24,384 nt of DNA from a virus, in IMG/VR virus record IMGVR_UViG_3300035698_004330, positions 1 through 24,384 of that record. One strand, given 5' to 3'. A program made the translations under genes and the position numbers. Positions 9,702-20,417 of this stretch are shown here, piece after piece. Every line of letters begins with the position of its first letter. Positions within the stretch are counted from its first letter, which is position 1. The notes under the pieces were generated by a model. The model did no database searches. It was given only the letters and a program-made list of their open reading frames with translations, and was not told the origin of the DNA.

Positions 9702-10235
9702 ATGCAGGCACAAGTAAGCGAGCAGCGCGAAGACCCTGACGATACACATCAGGGTGATATTGAGAGGGCGCTTGATCAGGTTTCACAACTCGATTGTGAG
9801 CAGCGCAGGGCCGCCATGATGGCGCTCGAATGTGACATGTTGCAGTTACCGCAAACCGAAATACCAGTTCGCCATGAATTTAATGGCAGCATGTATGCAC
9901 GGCAAATCTTAATCCCCAAAGGGACCTTAATCACCGGTCGAATCCACAAGTTCGATCATTTTGATGTCATGGCCTATGGTGATATCACATTAAGCACTGA
10001 TTCTGGCGGTGCGACACGATTAAAAGGCTATAATCTCATCAAGAGCAAAGCGGGCAAAAAGCGTGCTGCATTAGCGCACGAGGACACAATGTGGATTACA
10101 TTCCACAGTTCGCCCGAGAAAAACCCTGATGAAATGTATAATTACTTGTCGTGTGGCTCTTTTGAAGAGTACGACAACTTTCAAATAATGCTAGAGCACG
10201 CTATGAGCGGCAAGGATATAACAATATGGCCTTAG
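9702..10235 (+). CDS. Cupin-like phage protein
   Basis: A 177-aa protein with a charged helical N-terminus (residues 1-45) and a compact beta-barrel region (about 55-150). The barrel shows the cupin-type layout: YARQILIPKGTLITGRIHKF, then FDVMAYGDITLST, then a Gly-rich turn and KRAALAHEDTMWITFHSS. The His residues in GRIHKFDHF and in LAHED could form a metal site, but this is inference. Two ATGs are possible (9699, 9702); AAGGA at 9691-9695 is 6 bases from the second, so that is chosen. It occupies the position of the P22 morphogenesis gene 14. Role unknown; a virion or host-modifying component are both open. Its end overlaps the next gene by 10 bases. Confidence 0.78.
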   Translation: MQAQVSEQREDPDDTHQGDIERALDQVSQLDCEQRRAAMMALECDMLQLPQTEIPVRHEFNGSMYARQILIPKGTLITGRIHKFDHFDVMAYGDITLSTDSGGATRLKGYNLIKSKAGKKRAALAHEDTMWITFHSSPEKNPDEMYNYLSCGSFEEYDNFQIMLEHAMSGKDITIWP

Positions 10236-10906
10236 TTGTTTCAACTGTTGTAAATGTGGGTACAGCCCTATTGAGTGGCTATGTGCAAAACCGAGCTTCG
10301 AAGCGTGAAGCGGAAGCCATAACACAAGGTACAGCTCAAGAAATCGCCTATGGTGATCGAAATTTAGAGCTGCAAGAGCGATTATCAAACCAACAGCGCG
10401 AAGATTTTGCGCCGTGGCTGGCCTATGGTTTAGGCGCACAAGAGCGAATTAATCGCGGCATTGAGAGTGGTTCGTTTCAAGTTGGTGATTTTGATATCAG
10501 TCGTGACCCAAGCTATAACTTTCGACTCGCCGAGGGTGAAAAGGCTGTTACACGGGCCGCCAGTGCTGGTGGAAGGCTCGAAAGCGGGGCTTATGATAAA
10601 GCCCTAACACGCTTTGGTCAGGACTACGCAAGCCAAGAATATGCGAACCAATACGCTCGAAACGTTGAAGAGAAAAACCGCGAGTACAATATTCTAGCCA
10701 ACATGAGCAGCCAAGGCCAAGCCAGCGCAGCAGGTCAGGCCGGTGCTACTGCAACGCTTGCGAGCAATCAAGGTAATATTTTAAGCAATCAAGGTCGAAC
10801 GCAAAACCTAGGCACGCAAGGGTACGGCGCGACGCGAGCCAGAGGTTACACAAACGTGATGAAAGCGCTCAATACCGGCATGGAAAACTTTTTATCAACA
10901 CGATAG
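10226..10906 (+). CDS. DNA transfer/ejection protein, small (gp7-like position)
   Basis: A 226-aa protein beginning with a hydrophobic/amphipathic helix (ALVVSTVVNVGTALLSGYV, residues 2-20) suited to membrane insertion. The rest is Ala/Gln/Gly-rich, helical and hydrophilic. A conserved block at residues about 94-146 (DPSYNFRLAEGEKAV, then GGRLESGAYDKAL, then GQDYASQEYANQYAR) is typical of phage DNA-injection proteins. AAGGA at 10212-10216 lies inside the preceding cupin gene. Gene position equals P22 gene 7. Expected to be carried in the head and ejected to help DNA cross the envelope. Family assignment is from memory of the motif. Confidence 0.82.
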   Translation: MALVVSTVVNVGTALLSGYVQNRASKREAEAITQGTAQEIAYGDRNLELQERLSNQQREDFAPWLAYGLGAQERINRGIESGSFQVGDFDISRDPSYNFRLAEGEKAVTRAASAGGRLESGAYDKALTRFGQDYASQEYANQYARNVEEKNREYNILANMSSQGQASAAGQAGATATLASNQGNILSNQGRTQNLGTQGYGATRARGYTNVMKALNTGMENFLSTR

Positions 10907-10915
10907 GGTGTAATT

Positions 10916-11806
10916 ATGGCTGATGAATTCGGTTTTAATATGGGTAATGTGCTCAGAAACCAAGGGCAACGACAGCAAAACGAGATGTACAAGCAGAAAA
11001 ACGAGCTTGGCAGGATGGAAATTGACGCTTATAAAGCGCAAAGCAAAAACGCGCCAATGGTCAATCAATTAAAATTGAATGCAGCCGGCGGCAATGTGGA
11101 TGCTCAAAAGCAGTACCTTGCACTTGACCCAGTGAACGGGCCGGCGTTCATTGAAGCGCTCAATAAGATGGACGCTCAACAAAAAGAAGCCACACAATTG
11201 AAAGTCAATCAAATGGGCCAGCAGTTTGTGCGGATTCAGCAAGAGCCTAAGCCTGAAAACAGGGTTCGAATGTACGTCGAGCTGGTGTCGCAATTGCCCG
11301 AAGAGCGACGAGCGCAAGTGCCAAGTGAATACAATCCAGATTTTGTTGAGCTGCAAATCGCAAAGCTTAAAACGGTTGACCAGTTGATTAAAAGCCCAGA
11401 CGTTAAACAAGTTGGTGGTCAAGATCGAGTCTATAAAGACGGCAAAGAGATCGACAGGGCCACAAGACCCGTTAAATTAAGCAAAGAGGACAGGCCCAAA
11501 ACGCTCAAAGCGTCTGATGAGGCTCAGCTTTACAAGCAGCTTGCAGCGGTTGAGAGTGGGTTTCTTGACCCCGTCACTAACGAAATGTCGGGCTGGACAA
11601 CGGATGGACAAAAGCGAACAGCAGCACGAATGGACCAAGCATTAAAGTTGTGGAAAAAAAAGCCAGATATGTTGCTTGGCGAAGTAGCCGCAGAAGTCAT
11701 GCGAGGTTCGGGCGTTAACCTGCTCACGCCAGCTCAAATGACAGACCCAAAAGACCCAGCCGCGATTGGTGAGTTCTTATTGAGAAAAACAAACCGTTCA
11801 CCATGA
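10916..11806 (+). CDS. Probable internal virion/ejection protein (gp20-like position)
   Basis: A 296-aa hydrophilic, Gln- and Lys-rich, almost wholly helical protein. Residues 10-45 are strikingly Gln/Asn/Lys-rich (NQGQRQQNEMYKQKNELGRM). A central helical segment carries EPKPENRVRMYVELVSQLPEERRAQVP, and the C-terminal region (KRTAARMDQALKLWKKKPDML, then AAEVMRGSGVN) resembles the tails of phage ejection proteins. No signal peptide or transmembrane helix. It lies between the gp7-like protein and the giant polyvalent protein, as P22 gp20 lies between gp7 and gp16, so a role as co-ejected virion protein is inferred mainly from position and composition. A weak GGTG precedes the start. Confidence 0.72.
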   Translation: MADEFGFNMGNVLRNQGQRQQNEMYKQKNELGRMEIDAYKAQSKNAPMVNQLKLNAAGGNVDAQKQYLALDPVNGPAFIEALNKMDAQQKEATQLKVNQMGQQFVRIQQEPKPENRVRMYVELVSQLPEERRAQVPSEYNPDFVELQIAKLKTVDQLIKSPDVKQVGGQDRVYKDGKEIDRATRPVKLSKEDRPKTLKASDEAQLYKQLAAVESGFLDPVTNEMSGWTTDGQKRTAARMDQALKLWKKKPDMLLGEVAAEVMRGSGVNLLTPAQMTDPKDPAAIGEFLLRKTNRSP

Positions 11807-11843
11807 TTCTGTTACAAAAAAGAGTTGCTTAGTGTTCTTGTAG

Positions 11844-11880
11844 TGTACCATACTGGCACAAGTGCAGTGTGTACAAGCGC
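11844..11880 (-). repeat. Dyad element; inverted copy of the left-edge promoter motif
   Basis: Read on the minus strand, 11880-11856 matches the plus strand at 129-152 with two substitutions and one inserted base (shared blocks GCGCTTG, ACACACTG, ACT, GTGC); weaker similarity extends upstream (CAGAT and AAA blocks, near 11889 here and near 113 on the left). The element also contains a broken palindrome of 32 bases: TGTAC (11844-11848) pairs with GTACA (11871-11875), and GCAC (11856-11859) with GTGC (11862-11865). No T-run follows, so it is not a simple terminator. The rest of 11807-11986 shows no convincing gene or standard promoter. Confidence 0.6.
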
Positions 11881-11986
11881 GTTTGATCTGCGCGTAAAGA
11901 TCATGTAAAGAACGATAAAATGGGCATTACTAAAAAATACGAAGACATGTACTCGCATCAAATCAAGATCATAAAAAGCAACACGC

Positions 11987-12310
11987 TTGGCGTTTACGTG
12001 TACCAATGGTATTGGCTGTACAGTCGAATTTAGCAACGGCCTGAACGTCGATTATCAAAATGGCCACGCCTACTATGGTGGTGATTTTGGCGCACCATCG
12101 AATCGCTTTATCGCGTATAGAATCATCTTTGAAAATGACCCCGAAAATGAGCTGGATTTTGAAGAGCTTGATTTGGAGCTGCAAAAATTGATCGAAGATC
12201 ACGAGCCAACGTTGGCTGATTTTGGATTGACTGATGATATTGACGATCTCAGCGATGAGATACAAAACGAGCGAGAAGAACAAGGCTATTACATAGCCAT
12301 AGAGCCGTGA
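11987..12310 (+). CDS. Doubtful small acidic protein (TTG start or frameshifted gene)
   Basis: A 107-aa frame with clean coding character: TNGIGCTVEFSNGLNVDY near the N-terminus, then a strongly acidic helical C-terminal half (DFEELDLELQKLIEDHEP, then DDIDDLSDEIQNE). The only available start is TTG 11987; there is no internal Met and no visible ribosome binding site. An overlapping frame begins at ATG 11920 and ends at TAG 12031-12033 (37 aa, MGITKKYEDMYSHQIK...), in the frame one base off. The two could be one gene split by a frameshift, or the TTG start could be real. The acidic product before the giant gene could be a DNA-mimic or anti-defence protein, but that is speculation. No family is assigned. 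Confidence 0.45.
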   Translation: MAFTCTNGIGCTVEFSNGLNVDYQNGHAYYGGDFGAPSNRFIAYRIIFENDPENELDFEELDLELQKLIEDHEPTLADFGLTDDIDDLSDEIQNEREEQGYYIAIEP

Positions 12311-12377
12311 GTTCTTTTTGAAAAAAACAAAACGCTAAAAAGCCATTGACGGCGAAAACCACAGCAGGAGCGCAAGC

Positions 12378-15300
12378 GTGTCTGATATCTTACGCGAGTT
12401 TCGAACGCAATACCCAGAATACAATGGTATTGGCGACGACGATCTAGTCCAAGGTTTACACGGCAAGTATCAAGCCGAGGTAGCACCATCCATTACACTG
12501 GATGAATTCAAGTCCAGTATTGGCTATCAAGGTGTTCAAGCCCCGCTGCAACAGCCCGCAGCCGTGCCGTTCTCGCAAAACCAGTCAACACCACAACCAA
12601 TTCCACAAGCTGGACCGCCAGCATTGGCACAGCCCAAATCAATGCTTGAGCGTATCAATTCAAAGCTTGGCAATGTTGGCGCTAGTGTTGTGGAGCGTGC
12701 CGGTGATGTTGGTGGCGCTTTTCTCGAAGGTACTCGCATTGCAGCCAAGCCACTTGATGATTATTTTGGGACCGGCGCTATTGGCTTTGATAATGGCAAA
12801 CCAGCTTATTTTTCACAAGATGAAATGCAGCGCCGGAAAGTGCCGAATTACTCAAAAACCGCAGAGGACAGCTTAAAAGGTGTTGATTTAGGGTACCAAG
12901 AGCAAGTGTCGTGGGAGCAGGCCAAGCAGCAATTTGTTGATGACCCAGCTTCACTTAAAACCGTGGCGACGATGGCCGAGTTTGGCCTTGAGCAAGGCAT
13001 AAAATCATTGCCTGATATGGCAGCGGCCATGTTATTGCTCCCCGCACACATTGTTCAACGATCGGCAGAAATTGGCCAAGCCAGAGCGAATAACGACAAT
13101 CGCGAGCAAACAACCCCCTTAGATATGGCTATAGCAGCCCCGTTTGCGGTTGGCTCTGCTTTACTGGACCGGATTGGCGGCAAGGCCATTATGGGCGCGT
13201 TCAAGAAAGGGACAACAGAAGAGGCCGCAAAAGCAGCCGGTGAAGCCGTGATTAAAGCCGGTTTTGCCAGTGCTGCAAAGCGAGTTGGCGTGGCTGGCGG
13301 TAGTGCAGCACTCAAAGAAGCAGGCACGGAAGCGGTTCAAGAGGGTATGATTGAATATGTTGGCGAAACATTCGGCACTCAGGCTAAAATGGAATTCAAA
13401 GACGCACTAGATCGAGGTTTGGCTGGCGCAGTGGCTGGTGGTGTAACCGGTGGCACGCTTGGAGCGGTGGGTGCGACTACTCGTGAAGCACTACGACCAA
13501 GTGAGCAGGCAGAGCCATTATCACCAGCGGCGCAGGCTTTTATAGGTTTGTTTAAGCCAACAATTGATCAGCTTGAATTAAGGGACAAAGAAGGTGATAC
13601 GCTTGATGCGTTTCGACCAAGGCCAAACAATATCGACAGTGATTCACCGACCATGAATCCAAGCGATCAATTCTTTGGTGGTGATGGCGAGTTTCAGTCT
13701 GATTCAAAGATGCCAGCATTCGACCCCGTGGCGTTTGATGGCCCAAAGTCCCCAGCGGGTGTAATCGACAGCGAGGCCGATCGAGGGCCGGTAACAGAAG
13801 AGCCAAAGCGAGAGCCAAAGCCAGAGCCAAAGCCAGAGCCGAAACCTACAGAAAGCGATAAAGAAACAAGACAAGTTAAAAATCTTGAAGTGGTTGAGGC
13901 GCCGATTGATGACATTACAATCTCAAAAGACGTGCCGCAATTCAAAGATGGTGCTGATGAAATTGGTGTTGTTGAGCCATTAGGCGGTCGATTCGAGCGT
14001 ACAGGTGTTGGCCCTATTCAAATATGGGTTCGAAATGACGGTCGAAAAGAGGTGATATCTGGCAGGCACAGGCTAGACCTAGCCAAGCGATCAGGTGAAA
14101 AAACAATTCCAGCGCAGTATCATTATGAATCAGATGGCTTTGGTCAAGATCAGGCCGCTCTGCTGGATTCGTTATTGAATATTCGCGAAGGGCAAGGAAA
14201 GGTAAAAGATTATGTCGATTTCATCCAAGGCACCAAGCCAACCAAACCAGAAGCCGAGCAGCAAGGCTTATTGGGACGACAGACGGGGCGAAGGGCTTTC
14301 GCAATCGCAACTCAAGGCAGTGATACGCTCATTGCCGCCCACCGAAGCGATGAATTATCAGACCAAGCCGCTGAAAAAATAGCGCAAGCAGCCCCGAACG
14401 ATGAGGCGTTGCAGGCGGTTGGCATTCAGGCGATCAAGCAAGGTAAGAGTATAGCGCTGGCTGAAAACTTAGTGAAGGCAGTATCAGTGCTTGAGCCGGA
14501 GCCAACACAGGGCGACATGTTTGGCTTTGATGATAGCGCTATGGTTGAAGCTGTAAAGCTTGCAGAGGCGGCAGGTGCTAAGCAGCGCGATATTCAACAG
14601 TCATTGAGCGCTATTCGAGGGGGCGCTAAAAATCCAGAGCTGGCAGCAAAGCAAGGCGTGGACGTTAAAGACCCTGACGCAGTGCGCAAGCGTATCGCAA
14701 GGCTTTCAAAAGAAAAACAAGCTTGGGACAATTGGCCTACTCATCCGGTGATGGTTAAAGAACTCACCAAAGGCATTAAGCGTGATGATGAGGCTATTGG
14801 TTCACAACAAGAGATTGAGCCAAAGCCAGAGCCAGTTATTGACCAAAAACCAAAACCAACAACCGATCAAGAGCTGAAACCAGCACCCAGTGTGGCCCCA
14901 GCCGCTAAAGCGGTTGAAAAGCCCAAGACCGATCAAGAAAGCACGTACACACCACAAGACTTTGAGAGCTTTCAAAAAGCCATAGCGCAGCGAACATTAA
15001 CAGCCAAAGAGATCAAGCAAGACTTTGAAAGACTGGTGGCCAGTGAACAAGAGATATTGGCAACCTTAAATTCACGATCTTACACCAAGGCTATACTTCA
15101 AGAAATCGCCAGAACAGCAAGAACCGACCTTAAAAAAGCCCAGCTTGCAGAAGCAGCCTACCACCAAATGCTATCAAGCCATGTGGCGAAAGAATCCTAC
15201 ACGTTAAGTTGGAGCGCTAACACGCCTTATGCTGTAATGATTGGCAAGCTTGTTGATGCTCAGACACAAGAAGATGTTGAGCTATGGTATTCAGCGCTTG

Positions 15301-18300
15301 ATAAAAACAAGGCCGAGCGCATTAAAACTCTCGAGAAAACCAAGGCAGCGCTTGAAAACCCTAAAACACTCACGGATTTTAAAACCTTCATCCAGTACAA
15401 AGGTAAAAACAAACTCACGCCAGAGCAGTTGGCACGTTATGACGAGTTAGTGGCCGATTCACTCAAAGATTCACAAAAGCCAGCAGTGATTAAAGCTGGC
15501 GACAAAAAGCTTGAATATGACGAGCATCAAACCGTCCACAGTAAAAAAGGCCATGACCTATTCGTGATTGTGTTACGGCGCAGGCTTGAGCGTGATGAAT
15601 ATAACGAGTTGAATAAGAGTGCCAAGGCCCTTGGCGGGTACTATTCCAGCTACACCAAAGACGGCGCTATTGCAGGCTTTCAGTTCACAACCCGTGAAGG
15701 TGTGGACGGCTTTAAGCAATTGCTTGACGGTAAAAGTGTGAATGCCAGTGATGCAGCCGAGGCCAAAGCATCCTTGGCACACGTTAAAAACGCTGAAAAG
15801 CTCAGTGAAATGGCCGACAAGATCACACAACGCGCAGAGAAAGCGCTGAACTCAAACCGCAAGACCAACACAGTCAAGCGGGCCAGAGAAGCAGGCTATC
15901 AGATCGAGCGGGCCGAGAGTGAGCTTGTGTTTGCGGCCAACTTACGAGTGATTGCAGCCGGTTTAATCAATGGTGATTTTAAGCATTTAAGCCAAATTTC
16001 AGCCATGACCCAATTAACCGAGCTGAACGGTATTTATGACTCAGCCAAGTATCAGTACAACCGCGACAACAAGCGCGATTCAAGAGCGACAGCAGAATCC
16101 AGCGATGTGATTGCAACCATTGGTATGCCAAAATTTAACGTCTGGACTGATGACGCTAAAAAGCACGCCAATACACTTACAGGTAAGCGAGGGTATGGCC
16201 CACTACGGGAAGCACTTCATTTAATTGCAAAATCAAATGACAATAAGCCGACACCAGTCAGTCGTGAAGTGGCTGAATTGATCGAAAAAGCCAAAGCGAG
16301 CGACTTGTTTGGAAGTCACGAGTTCTCCTGGATCAAGGATAAGCTTGAATCCACCAAGCGCCTTAACAGAATGGGCATTACTACGGATTCCGAGCTACGC
16401 GCCGCTCTGCGTGAGCTTGTGTCAATTGAGGTTAAAAAGCGCGAAAAGACCAAGGCCGATAAGGTTAAAGAGCTTGAGCGTGAGCTTGTTGGTCAAAAGA
16501 TTGAAGGCTTTTTTCCAACACCAAACGTCATTATTGATCAGATGATAGCCATTGCTGATATTCAACCCAATGACCGGATACTAGAACCAAGTGCTGGCAA
16601 GGGCAATATACTTGATCGCTTGGTTGAAACCGTACCGGATATCAATTTGAGCGTGCAGGTGGATGCAGCCGAGAAAAGCTATTCACTGCAAAAAATACTC
16701 GAATTCAAAGGCTACAACGTCACCAGTGGTCATTTTCTCGAAGTCACGCAAGAGTACGACAAGATTCTAATGAACCCGCCGTTTGAAAACTTTCAAGATA
16801 TAGATCATGTACGACACGCTTATTCACTGTTAAAGCCAAATGGCACTTTAGTGGCCATCATGGGGGCAGGCGTTAAAAATTCCAGAACCAAGGCCAAAGA
16901 ATTCATGCAATGGCTGGATTACAACGGTGGTTCAATAGAGGATTTGCCAGCTAATTCATTCAAAGATTCAGAGCGATCCACTGGTGTATCGACCGTTATG
17001 GTGGTCATGCACAAGCCCGACACCGGCATTGTTAAAATGCAGATTATGGAATCCAAGGGCCAGACTTACACGCCGGACACCTTCCAAGCCGCAGGCACTA
17101 ATCACTATCGGACCTATGGCGAGCTTGGCATCCCACCACGATCTGAAACCATGATTATTCGCGGCAAGGTCCACGAAATGCCAGAGAAAGCTCAAAGGCA
17201 CGAGCCGATCATGCAAAAGCTTGTGGAAATTATGGGACCAAGAATCTATTTCTCAAAAGTCAAAGGCCGATCAACCAATGGCTTTTACCGGCCAGCGGTG
17301 GGCGAGATCAGGACCAAAAAGAAAAACGATGTTGAGATACTGGCGCATGAGATGGCGCATTATCTTGATTTTTACTCGAATATATCATTGCCAAACTTTC
17401 AAGCCGCTTACAAAGACTCGCGCTTTCGTGATGAGGTTATGGCTTTAAGCTACACCGACAAGACTAAAGACCTGCAAGAAATCGAAGGTTTTGCGGAATT
17501 TGTACGCCTATGGCTAACCAATTCAGCCGAGTCAAGTCTATTAGCCCCGAAATTCAGTGAAGAATTTGAGCGTTTATTGTCAAGAGACAAAAAGCTTTTC
17601 AAAAAAATGATTGATTTGCAATTGATGATGCACAGATTCTATCTTCAAGGGCCTGAAAAGCTTGGTGAAGCCCTTATGGGTAAGAATGAGCCATTGATGT
17701 ACACGTTCCAAAAATGGAAGCTCAGACGCAATTCAAAGCTCAGACAAGCCATTATTGATTCAACACACGCTTATCGGCGTATTGAGCAGGATTTAACGGG
17801 CGGGATTGCCAGTGCGAACAAGTCAGCTTGGAAGTTGATGCGTATGGCGCAAGGCGGCAGCGATGGTGTGGCAGAACATATCTTAAATGTGGGTACTGTA
17901 ACCTATGGCCGAAATGGCGATTTAATCAAAACTGGCAAGGGCTTGTATCAAGTCTTTAAGCCGGTGAAAAAAATCAAAAGGCTCAAAAAGCACAAAAATA
18001 TCACTCAAGCTAATTTATTGATGCGTTATTTTGTGGGCTTGCGAGCGCAAGAGTTGCGAGGTCAAGGCCGCGAGCGATTAATCCCCAAAGAAGTATCAGA
18101 AGCTTGGATTCAATACGGTGAAGATTACCCGATTTTTAGAGGTATACACAAAGAATATCAAGAATTCAATGCTCGAAACCTTGATTTTTATGTGAGTGCT
18201 GGCATCTTATCAGAAGAAGGTCGCGCCACATTCCAAGAGCGCAATAAGAATTATGTGCCATTTTTCAGGATTCGTGAAGCCCTTGATTCTGATGTAAGCC

Positions 18301-20417
18301 CGACAAGCTCAGGTTTTAAAAAGCTTCTTGGTGGTACTGGCAACTTGAAAGACATTATGGTGAATATCCAAGAAGGGATTGCGAACAACACCAAGGCCGC
18401 CATGCAAAACAAAGCCAAGCAAGTGTTTTATAACATGATGGCTGGCAGTAAAGATTCAGCGTACTACGCGGTGCAGATCGGTACGGACACCAAGCCAGTT
18501 AAAGTGATGAAGCAGCAAATGGAGCAAAAGCTAAGCCAAGTTTTTGCAGCGCTTGAGCTTGACCTTGATGAGTATTTTGATCCGCTCAGCGATAAAGACA
18601 CCGGCATAGGCTTTGATGATTTGTTAACAGATGATTTATTAACGTTTTGGCAAGTGGGCCAAAAGCCAACACTGACAGCATCAGGCAACGCGCTCGACAC
18701 AGTGATGATTGCAGGGATGCCAAAATACTTTGAAGTGCAGGACGCAATGCTCAATGAAATGTTGTTGTCATTAAATCCTAAAGTCTATGGAAAAATCATT
18801 GGTTCAATGTTTGCCATTAAAAACTTTCACACGCGAACCATTGTACTGGCCCCGCAGTTTATGCCTTTTAACCTCATTCGGGACACATTGAGTGGTGCGA
18901 TTTTAACCAAAGGTAAGTTTATACCGCTCATAAGCAGCCTTACAGGCATGAAAGATTATCTGTTCAAGACGCAAGCTTACAATGATTGGTTAAGAGCTGG
19001 CGGCGCACACAGTTCAAGACTTGACGGTATCAACCAAGAATCTGGCGCAAGACGGCGAATTAAGCTTGATGAGTTCGGCGCAAGCACAATACCCTTGTCA
19101 ATGCTGCATTTTGTCGATCATATCGCGAGTGCGTTTGAAAATGGGACGCGAATCGGTGAATTCAAGCTGGCACGAAAAGCCGGTAATACCTTGATGGAAT
19201 CAGGTTTTCGAAGCCGTGAAATATCAACAGACTTTAGTGTCCGAGGCTCAAATGAGTTTTTGACAGGGCTTATTCGAACCATACCGTTTATGAACGCCAT
19301 GATTCAATCGCAGGACCGCTTATTCAGAGAGTTGTTCGTCAGTAAAAAATACGATGGCAACCCGACCAATGTGGCCATGAAAGGTATTTTAGGGATAGGC
19401 GTACCAACCATGATGTTGTGGTTACTCAATCACGACGATGAGGACTATATTAATCAAACAGACGTGACTAAAAAGCTCAATTGGTTGATTCCAATTGGTG
19501 ATGGTCGATTCATCAAGATACCAAAGCCGTTTGATATCGGCTTTATGTTTGGCACGGTGCCTGAAACCATGCTCGACTATTACAAGGACAAAAACGGCAA
19601 AAAGTTTGCTGAAAGTCTGGCGTGGATGGTTGTTCAAATGTATGGGGTAAGCTTGCCAAGCTTTATGCAAGGCCCAATGGACATTATCACGAATGAAAAG
19701 TGGACCGGCGCACCAGTCGTGCCAAGCGCTCTAGGTGATGAAAAGGTGAGCAGTGTGAACCAGTTCAATGCCAGTACGTCACAGGTGTTTATCGAGTTTG
19801 GCAAGGCAGTGGGCATGAGTCCCATGAAGGCGGAACACTTGTTTGATTCAGTGACCGGCTATTGGGGTGATATGACCAAGGCCATGATTGATACGGCGCT
19901 TTGGGATACCGAGCGCTTTGGTGAACCACCGGAAAAAGATATATCACGTAATATCTTTATGGGTCGGTTTATAACTTCACGGGTACCATACTCAAACGCG
20001 CCAATGGAGCGTTTTTTCAAGTTGCGCGAGGATGCTATGCGGTTTGCCGGTGATATGGCGCAAGCTCAAGGTGTTGAGGCGTATTTAAAGCGTGAGCCAG
20101 TCAATATGCAAGACTTTTTTAAAGATGATGCCATTGTAGCCACCGGCTACACGAAAGAAGAAAAGCAGACTATGGTAGCGCTTAACACGAAAATGACCAA
20201 ACTTGTGAATCTCATTTATGGCAAAAAGGGCATGAGGACACAAGAGCTTATGGCCAGACTTGATAAAAACCTCAATGCCGAACAAAAACGCGCCGCAATG
20301 GAAAAAATATGGTCAAGGCGTGCCGTTCTCTTTAATGACTACATGACCAATGTTGAAAGGCTACTTCAAGCGCAACGTCAAAAAGGGCTTGATCGAATCA
20401 AACGAGAAAAGGACTAA
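12378..20417 (+). CDS. Giant polyvalent virion protein (ParB-like, methyltransferase, zincin)
   Basis: 2679 aa; GTG start with AGGAG at 12366-12370. Order: N-terminal REFRTQYPEYNG motif (6-17) of virion-associated proteins; Pro/Gln linker (54-87); Ala/Gly-rich helices (about 230-365), possibly membrane-active; EPKP repeats (475-490); ParB/Srx-like domain (about 497-600) with SGRHR at 561-565; second Pro-rich linker (about 813-855); a conserved KKGHDLF...YYSSY...GFQF region (about 1055-1110); an adenine-specific methyltransferase-like domain (about 1375-1520) with FFPTP, EPSAGKG (1403-1409) and NPPF (1466-1469); a zinc peptidase-like region with HEMAH (1657-1661) and EGFAE (1703-1707); and a helical C-terminal ~900 residues of the large-polyvalent-protein type (NLIRD at 2165-2169). 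P22 gene 16 occupies this place, so delivery with the DNA is inferred. Plausible role: protecting incoming DNA from host defences. Confidence 0.9.
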   Translation: MSDILREFRTQYPEYNGIGDDDLVQGLHGKYQAEVAPSITLDEFKSSIGYQGVQAPLQQPAAVPFSQNQSTPQPIPQAGPPALAQPKSMLERINSKLGNVGASVVERAGDVGGAFLEGTRIAAKPLDDYFGTGAIGFDNGKPAYFSQDEMQRRKVPNYSKTAEDSLKGVDLGYQEQVSWEQAKQQFVDDPASLKTVATMAEFGLEQGIKSLPDMAAAMLLLPAHIVQRSAEIGQARANNDNREQTTPLDMAIAAPFAVGSALLDRIGGKAIMGAFKKGTTEEAAKAAGEAVIKAGFASAAKRVGVAGGSAALKEAGTEAVQEGMIEYVGETFGTQAKMEFKDALDRGLAGAVAGGVTGGTLGAVGATTREALRPSEQAEPLSPAAQAFIGLFKPTIDQLELRDKEGDTLDAFRPRPNNIDSDSPTMNPSDQFFGGDGEFQSDSKMPAFDPVAFDGPKSPAGVIDSEADRGPVTEEPKREPKPEPKPEPKPTESDKETRQVKNLEVVEAPIDDITISKDVPQFKDGADEIGVVEPLGGRFERTGVGPIQIWVRNDGRKEVISGRHRLDLAKRSGEKTIPAQYHYESDGFGQDQAALLDSLLNIREGQGKVKDYVDFIQGTKPTKPEAEQQGLLGRQTGRRAFAIATQGSDTLIAAHRSDELSDQAAEKIAQAAPNDEALQAVGIQAIKQGKSIALAENLVKAVSVLEPEPTQGDMFGFDDSAMVEAVKLAEAAGAKQRDIQQSLSAIRGGAKNPELAAKQGVDVKDPDAVRKRIARLSKEKQAWDNWPTHPVMVKELTKGIKRDDEAIGSQQEIEPKPEPVIDQKPKPTTDQELKPAPSVAPAAKAVEKPKTDQESTYTPQDFESFQKAIAQRTLTAKEIKQDFERLVASEQEILATLNSRSYTKAILQEIARTARTDLKKAQLAEAAYHQMLSSHVAKESYTLSWSANTPYAVMIGKLVDAQTQEDVELWYSALDKNKAERIKTLEKTKAALENPKTLTDFKTFIQYKGKNKLTPEQLARYDELVADSLKDSQKPAVIKAGDKKLEYDEHQTVHSKKGHDLFVIVLRRRLERDEYNELNKSAKALGGYYSSYTKDGAIAGFQFTTREGVDGFKQLLDGKSVNASDAAEAKASLAHVKNAEKLSEMADKITQRAEKALNSNRKTNTVKRAREAGYQIERAESELVFAANLRVIAAGLINGDFKHLSQISAMTQLTELNGIYDSAKYQYNRDNKRDSRATAESSDVIATIGMPKFNVWTDDAKKHANTLTGKRGYGPLREALHLIAKSNDNKPTPVSREVAELIEKAKASDLFGSHEFSWIKDKLESTKRLNRMGITTDSELRAALRELVSIEVKKREKTKADKVKELERELVGQKIEGFFPTPNVIIDQMIAIADIQPNDRILEPSAGKGNILDRLVETVPDINLSVQVDAAEKSYSLQKILEFKGYNVTSGHFLEVTQEYDKILMNPPFENFQDIDHVRHAYSLLKPNGTLVAIMGAGVKNSRTKAKEFMQWLDYNGGSIEDLPANSFKDSERSTGVSTVMVVMHKPDTGIVKMQIMESKGQTYTPDTFQAAGTNHYRTYGELGIPPRSETMIIRGKVHEMPEKAQRHEPIMQKLVEIMGPRIYFSKVKGRSTNGFYRPAVGEIRTKKKNDVEILAHEMAHYLDFYSNISLPNFQAAYKDSRFRDEVMALSYTDKTKDLQEIEGFAEFVRLWLTNSAESSLLAPKFSEEFERLLSRDKKLFKKMIDLQLMMHRFYLQGPEKLGEALMGKNEPLMYTFQKWKLRRNSKLRQAIIDSTHAYRRIEQDLTGGIASANKSAWKLMRMAQGGSDGVAEHILNVGTVTYGRNGDLIKTGKGLYQVFKPVKKIKRLKKHKNITQANLLMRYFVGLRAQELRGQGRERLIPKEVSEAWIQYGEDYPIFRGIHKEYQEFNARNLDFYVSAGILSEEGRATFQERNKNYVPFFRIREALDSDVSPTSSGFKKLLGGTGNLKDIMVNIQEGIANNTKAAMQNKAKQVFYNMMAGSKDSAYYAVQIGTDTKPVKVMKQQMEQKLSQVFAALELDLDEYFDPLSDKDTGIGFDDLLTDDLLTFWQVGQKPTLTASGNALDTVMIAGMPKYFEVQDAMLNEMLLSLNPKVYGKIIGSMFAIKNFHTRTIVLAPQFMPFNLIRDTLSGAILTKGKFIPLISSLTGMKDYLFKTQAYNDWLRAGGAHSSRLDGINQESGARRRIKLDEFGASTIPLSMLHFVDHIASAFENGTRIGEFKLARKAGNTLMESGFRSREISTDFSVRGSNEFLTGLIRTIPFMNAMIQSQDRLFRELFVSKKYDGNPTNVAMKGILGIGVPTMMLWLLNHDDEDYINQTDVTKKLNWLIPIGDGRFIKIPKPFDIGFMFGTVPETMLDYYKDKNGKKFAESLAWMVVQMYGVSLPSFMQGPMDIITNEKWTGAPVVPSALGDEKVSSVNQFNASTSQVFIEFGKAVGMSPMKAEHLFDSVTGYWGDMTKAMIDTALWDTERFGEPPEKDISRNIFMGRFITSRVPYSNAPMERFFKLREDAMRFAGDMAQAQGVEAYLKREPVNMQDFFKDDAIVATGYTKEEKQTMVALNTKMTKLVNLIYGKKGMRTQELMARLDKNLNAEQKRAAMEKIWSRRAVLFNDYMTNVERLLQAQRQKGLDRIKREKD
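13800..13847 (+). repeat. Four tandem 12-bp units encoding EPK(P/R)
   Basis: GAGCCAAAGCCA-type units repeat four times in frame inside the giant gene, encoding EPKR-EPKP-EPKP-EPKP at residues 475-490. It forms a rigid charged linker just before the ParB-like domain. Such tandem units are prone to copy-number change by replication slippage. A related but non-tandem Pro/Lys-rich stretch recurs at residues about 813-855. Confidence 0.9.

Follow-up and report, generated by a model that had tools for sequence, protein, structure and literature searches.

A giant polyvalent protein at the gene-16 position of a P22-like gene order, with an exchangeable payload in its middle

The window analysed here is the entire 24,384-base virus record IMGVR_UViG_3300035698_004330, and the question that it raises is what a protein of 2679 amino acids does at the place where P22 has gene 16. 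The initial annotation of this DNA had described a single-frame giant protein at the ejection position, replacing P22 gp16 and joining a ParB-like nuclease, a methyltransferase, a zincin and a C-terminus of the large-polyvalent type in a domain order judged worth comparing with described architectures. Comparisons of polyvalent proteins have usually been made between distantly related phages, none of which share the same order of domains. The general idea that such proteins are counter-defence enzymes injected by the phage comes from Iyer et al., 2017 (PMC5512222, cited throughout from part of its text).

Gene neighbourhood and class of the giant protein

The giant protein is encoded in one intact frame, as first annotated, and its GTG start matches residue 1 of the orthologues in the alignment. 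Genes for terL, portal, scaffold, coat, the head-tail adaptor (Ad3) and head closure (Hc3) lie 5′ of it, and Hc3 is followed by a short tail fibre-type gene, a 'DNA ejection' gene (phrog_598) and one further gene; on the 3′ side there are a gene at the tailspike position, NinG and an Erf-like gene. This is the order of P22, with the giant in the place of gene 16, after the gp7 and gp20 positions and before that of the tailspike (Table 1), which agrees with the ejection position originally assigned. Genes 7, 20 and 16 of P22 encode ejection proteins (PMC8402733, from the available part of the text). In the relatives, the giant gene also sits in the virion block, between the ejection genes and the tailspike. 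The replacement of gp16 holds for the position and fails for the sequence. Neither BLAST nor hhalign found similarity between the giant and P22 gp16, a protein of 609 aa; because of this, both its standing as a gp16 analogue and any gp16-like function are read from position only. Homology to P22 gp20 was likewise not found for the gene at that position.

Two observations were made on the flanks. The 868-aa gene at the tailspike position had no strong PHROG match. On the other side, the giant gene is preceded by a gap of 571 bp (11807-12377), compared with about 20-50 bp in the relatives, containing an acidic 107-aa ORF (11987-12310) and an overlapping short ORF (11920-12033), which may be a single small gene broken by a frameshift. 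No RNA family was matched in the window, this gap included.

A tblastn search with the giant protein returned 242 phage records, 17 of which cover at least 80% of it. Near-full-length orthologues were found in Shewanella phage X14 (genus Bocovirus), Thalassomonas phage BA3 and Vibrio phages D478, 1.183.O, 1.211, 41E34.2 and FGH, with 43-49% identity over the full alignment, and VvAW1, whose protein is annotated as DarB-like antirestriction, is a more distant member of the family. The giant falls in an existing PHROG family, phrog_15406, and belongs to the known class of phage polyvalent proteins, combining two or more dissimilar domains in a single chain (here a ParB fold, a methyltransferase, a zincin and LPD38) that is encoded among the late virion genes. 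Its domain order turned out to be nothing special: N-ParB-methyltransferase-zincin-LPD38 is also the module order of the cultured phages X14, D478, 1.183.O and 1.211, whose orthologues are 46-49% identical to it, and ParB folds fused to methyltransferases have been published as frequent in phages (PMC12704722).

Table 1. Features of the giant protein and of its neighbouring genes in the window
Feature	Position	Strand	Evidence
gp7-like DNA ejection gene	10226..10906	+	phrog_598, E 6.5e-30
Gene at P22 gp20 position	10916..11806	+	position; without detected homology to gp20
Giant polyvalent protein, 2679 aa, GTG start, P22 gene-16 position	12378..20417	+	ORF, tblastn orthologues, PHROG context, P22 order
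N1, conserved N-terminal ~60 aa, candidate capsid-targeting stretch	12378..12557	+	orthologue alignment; P1 DarB precedent
N2, conserved N-terminal chassis region, aa 195-364, common to VvAW1-type members	12960..13469	+	homologue comparison
Exchangeable slot, aa ~485-860, P/E/K-rich linkers at bounds	13830..14957	+	orthologue alignment, DNA comparison
ParB/Noc-type cassette, aa 500-786; GRHR 14061-14072	13875..14735	+	homologue alignment, profile, AF2 model, Foldseek
Conserved region before methyltransferase, aa 860-1310	14955..16307	+	homologue comparison
Predicted N6-adenine-type methyltransferase, aa 1311-1555; EPSAGKG 16584-16604, NPPF 16773-16784	16308..17042	+	motifs, PHROG, PADLOC, Pfam in orthologues
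Zincin metallopeptidase-like domain, aa 1572-1800; HEMAH 17346-17360, EGFAE 17484-17498	17091..17777	+	invariant residues, model, Foldseek
C-terminal chassis region without assigned fold, aa 1801-2353	17778..19436	+	homologue comparison
LPD38 domain, aa 2354-2522	19437..19943	+	Pfam, E 1.7e-36
Gene at tailspike position, 868 aa	20421..23027	+	position in window and relatives

Constant ends and predicted enzymes

The two ends of the protein, aa 1-364 and aa 1565-2679 (the zincin, the region at aa 1801-2353 and LPD38), are conserved and syntenic and are its constant parts, referred to here as the chassis. When the N-terminal 60 aa were compared with other phage proteins, the matches were orthologues and two insignificant hits. 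At the opposite end, the large-polyvalent C-terminus that had been proposed proved to contain an unambiguous LPD38 domain. A second polymorphic block was noticed inside the N-terminal chassis (aa ~100-340). It exists in two forms, ~10% and 35-45% identical to the window protein, which separate loci L004 and L005 from L002, and the downstream backbone DNA of these phages is 93% identical.

The peptidase domain is by its residues and its model probably a gluzincin-like zincin (HExxH...E) with predicted activity. HEMAH is located at aa 1657-1661 and EGFAE at aa 1703-1707, and all 29 homologues compared, some as little as 19% identical and some with the payload nearly absent, keep both the HExxH motif and the Glu downstream of it. 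Since the zincin is intact across the chassis family, it is assigned to the chassis, not to the cargo. The top Foldseek matches of the confident model (pLDDT 86) are gluzincin-type peptidases and ArdC; they are consistent with a zincin fold and moderate in strength (best E-value 0.007 at probability 1.0, with a TM-score of 0.33 relative to the query length).

Profile support was obtained for the methyltransferase region (PHROG E 1e-24; PADLOC E 1.8e-12; Pfam in orthologues), and the motifs EPSAGKG (aa 1403-1409) and NPPF (aa 1466-1469) are invariant in eight aligned orthologues. Together with FFPTP, they agree with what Iyer et al. give for the gamma-class adenine enzyme (PMC5512222). The domain is therefore a predicted methyltransferase of the gamma-class adenine type with NPP(F/Y) present. 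Pfam matched no helicase family in the giant, in contrast to VvAW1 and others, which do carry a helicase. Because separate DNA methyltransferase genes, one or two of them, are annotated elsewhere in several relatives, methylation is not the task of the giant alone. One relative lacks the domain (L185), and in another (L167:6701-13273) it is degenerate, with motif I changed to NIYTGKG, NPPF gone and the rest of the chassis intact, which suggests that the payload of this phage is decaying.

The ParB-like nuclease of the initial annotation was supported as a fold and not as a nuclease. GRHR (aa 562-565, a GxxR motif) is invariant in 42 homologues of the ParB domain. Pfam gave no match on the window's own cassette; 19 of the 42 homologues matched ParB_N weakly, and a sequence profile of the cassette homologues reached Noc at E 0.0016. 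The AF2 model (pLDDT 87) matches ParB, Noc and KorB structures in Foldseek over ~210 columns, including the helix-turn-helix part (best E 1.7e-6, probability 1.0). TM-scores by target length spread over ~0.32-0.63, with 0.63 for the Noc chain 7nfu_B, from which we infer that the two sub-domains may be placed differently between crystal forms. By profile and model, the cassette is a two-domain ParB/Noc-type fold, with a predicted NTP-binding part and a helical part predicted to bind DNA. The possibility of a DdrB-like nuclease was considered and rejected, given the matches to the ParB/Noc/KorB fold and the absence of ddrB-ParB (PF18763), a family that does match in phiARM81mr, from those matched by the 42 homologues. 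Nuclease activity is on record for ParB folds of other proteins (PMC5512222); for this cassette it is conceivable, though nothing specific supports it. A search for a palindromic parS-like site shared by the ParB-bearing phages and the window found none.

The exchangeable slot and the range of payloads

The region at aa ~485-860, which contains the ParB cassette, has no counterpart in the alignment of BA3, 41E34.2 and FGH. The comparison of two isolates, D478 and 41E34.2, is the clearest case of exchange. Their DNA is 92% identical before the slot and 93% identical after it, and nothing is alignable between the ~1,040 bases of the first and the ~840 bases of the second, which encode the ParB module and a HEVGH domain, respectively. 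The other backbones, several of which are metagenomic assemblies, display the same pattern. L018 and BA3, with flanks 89% and 90% identical, differ by ParB versus an unannotated domain, and BA3 and L017, with flanks 88% and 89% identical, differ by this unannotated domain versus a GNAT domain above the Pfam cut-off. In FGH and L015, the slot holds an unannotated domain that reads as largely helical, L016 combines ParB with a HELIH domain that has a weak SprT-like match, and L103 combines ParB with two GNAT matches. In X14, D478, 1.183.O and 1.211, the ParB module is followed by additional sequence, including a ~75-aa block, which is missing from the window. The slot domain of BA3 (giant ORF 14001-21893 of L006, aa ~555-660) is also present in the metagenomic phages L167 and L185 and has no Pfam or PADLOC match in any of the three. 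A likeness of this domain to ADP-ribosyltransferases, seen by eye alone, is not claimed.

The range of payloads was surveyed by a profile search with the N2 and zincin regions, which gave 109 ORF entries; overlapping loci on shared contigs account for many of them. Between the two regions, 30 distinct payloads of 189-2560 aa were found, in a sample of the best-scoring loci whose counts are not frequencies. A DarB-type methyltransferase together with an SNF2 helicase was present in 10 of the 30, one of which adds an inorganic pyrophosphatase (InPase) domain, and the longest payload (2560 aa) is again a DarB-like methyltransferase with helicase. At the other extreme, three of the 30 (L205, L174 and L202) consist of 189-280 residues that read as linker alone. 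The middle of the giant is thus an exchangeable payload, which in the window phage is a predicted ParB/Noc-type module followed by an N6-adenine-type methyltransferase, and the ParB module is one of several interchangeable occupants of the slot.

The same cassette, at 29-64% identity, is found in dozens of further giant proteins that are otherwise unrelated to this one or related to it only distantly. Examples outside the chassis family are L148, where it accompanies LPD39 and an SNF2 helicase, and L106, where it accompanies a different LPD38 protein. The plasmid collection contained no relatives of the cassette; two were present in the genome collection, each in a metagenome assembly. For the window protein, ParB identity is 72% versus 55-60% for the zincin and the methyltransferase, a difference that does not settle recent transfer because other pairs often show ParB equally or more conserved.

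Possible roles of chassis and cargo

The giant probably serves a short-tailed phage of the P22 type as the ejection protein of the gp16 position, acting as a delivery chassis with exchangeable counter-defence cargo. Its N-terminus would direct it into the capsid, following the precedent of P1 DarB, which like DdrB is a virion protein and is packaged via an N-terminal targeting signal of which 30 residues suffice (PMC9024508). It would then leave the virion together with the DNA, and the zincin would cleave it, either inside the virion or once in the host, a processing that has been proposed for the polyvalent class (PMC5512222). The target of the payload would be either the entering DNA or the defences of the host, and the ParB module may hold or regulate the methyltransferase on DNA, most likely via NTP binding. 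P1 DarB protects in cis, and the methyltransferase of the giant would comparably mark phage DNA ahead of restriction enzymes.

Three other explanations were weighed. It is unlikely that the giant is chiefly a structural ejection protein, with a chassis essential for DNA entry and payloads that are minor, largely neutral insertions in low-complexity linkers. The near-empty chassis, two of which (L205 and L174) keep synteny with head and ejection genes, and the lost motifs of the L167 methyltransferase are what such a protein could be expected to show; however, the invariance of the methyltransferase motifs (n=8) and of the key ParB residues (n=42) indicates that the modules are under purifying selection, and the payloads are of types known from conflict systems (GNAT, DarB-like methyltransferase-helicase, InPase). 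An improbable reading makes the ParB module the functional core, an injected ParB/Noc-like clamp on host parS or Noc-like sites that would disturb chromosome handling, while the methyltransferase would have a subsidiary role. It fits the two-domain resemblance to ParB/Noc, DNA-binding part included, the lack of a parS-like site common to the phages themselves and the many otherwise unrelated giant proteins that carry the cassette, and it is opposed by the sister phages without ParB and by other phage ParB folds, which bind ATP or CTP (PMC12704722). Very improbable is a cytoplasmic enzyme made during infection, acting on the host and staying unpackaged. Presence in the virion is deduced for the giant, which leaves room for this reading, but the place of its gene in the virion block and the packaging of P1 DarB and DdrB (PMC9024508) argue against it.

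The interpretation as a delivery chassis with cargo can be compared with known systems. The giant resembles the polyvalent proteins of Iyer et al. (PMC5512222) in its multidomain size, virion gene block, LPD38, zincin and adenine methyltransferase; it departs from what the available text describes in that its methyltransferase lacks a helicase, although an SF2/SNF2 helicase nearly always follows there, and in a ParB module of the ParB/Noc type instead of the DdrB type. With P1 DarB it shares large size and a gamma-class adenine methyltransferase, and it differs in having no helicase, in the type of phage and in that packaging and protection are predicted here; VvAW1, of the same chassis family, has the DarB-like methyltransferase with helicase. 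With P22 gp16 it shares the gene position, and not the length or the sequence. Both the polyvalent class (PMC5512222) and ParB-methyltransferase fusions in phages (PMC12704722) are already published. Iyer et al. brought up the variation of cassettes by recombination at loci that carry a kinase and have small genes alongside; the available part of that paper contained no description of exchange within one slot on nearly identical backbones (PMC5512222). The word 'polyvalent' does not occur in PMC12704722, and, as distinct from the ParB-CTPase fold fusions reported there, the module of the giant sits in a slot where unrelated domains replace it in close relatives. The literature searched, which took in few subscription papers, yielded no account of a single protein at the ejection position that has a swap slot on nearly identical backbones, a weak indication that the slot is new.

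Beyond the window phage, it is quite possible, and tentatively proposed, that a constant ejected chassis (N-terminal targeting/translocation region, zincin and LPD38) serves P22-like phages as a general vehicle. Recombination would refill its central slot with unrelated domains for counter-defence or host takeover, and its zincin would free the cargo after entry, by analogy with polymorphic toxins and T4 internal proteins. D478 and 41E34.2, with more than 90% identical DNA around the slot and one module differing, ParB versus HEVGH, are matched natural variants in culturable phages, which could show what an injected module does, on which hosts it has an effect and whether the cargo is set free by the zincin. 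Members that are nearly empty, in turn, show which parts infection needs and which parts resemble cargo.
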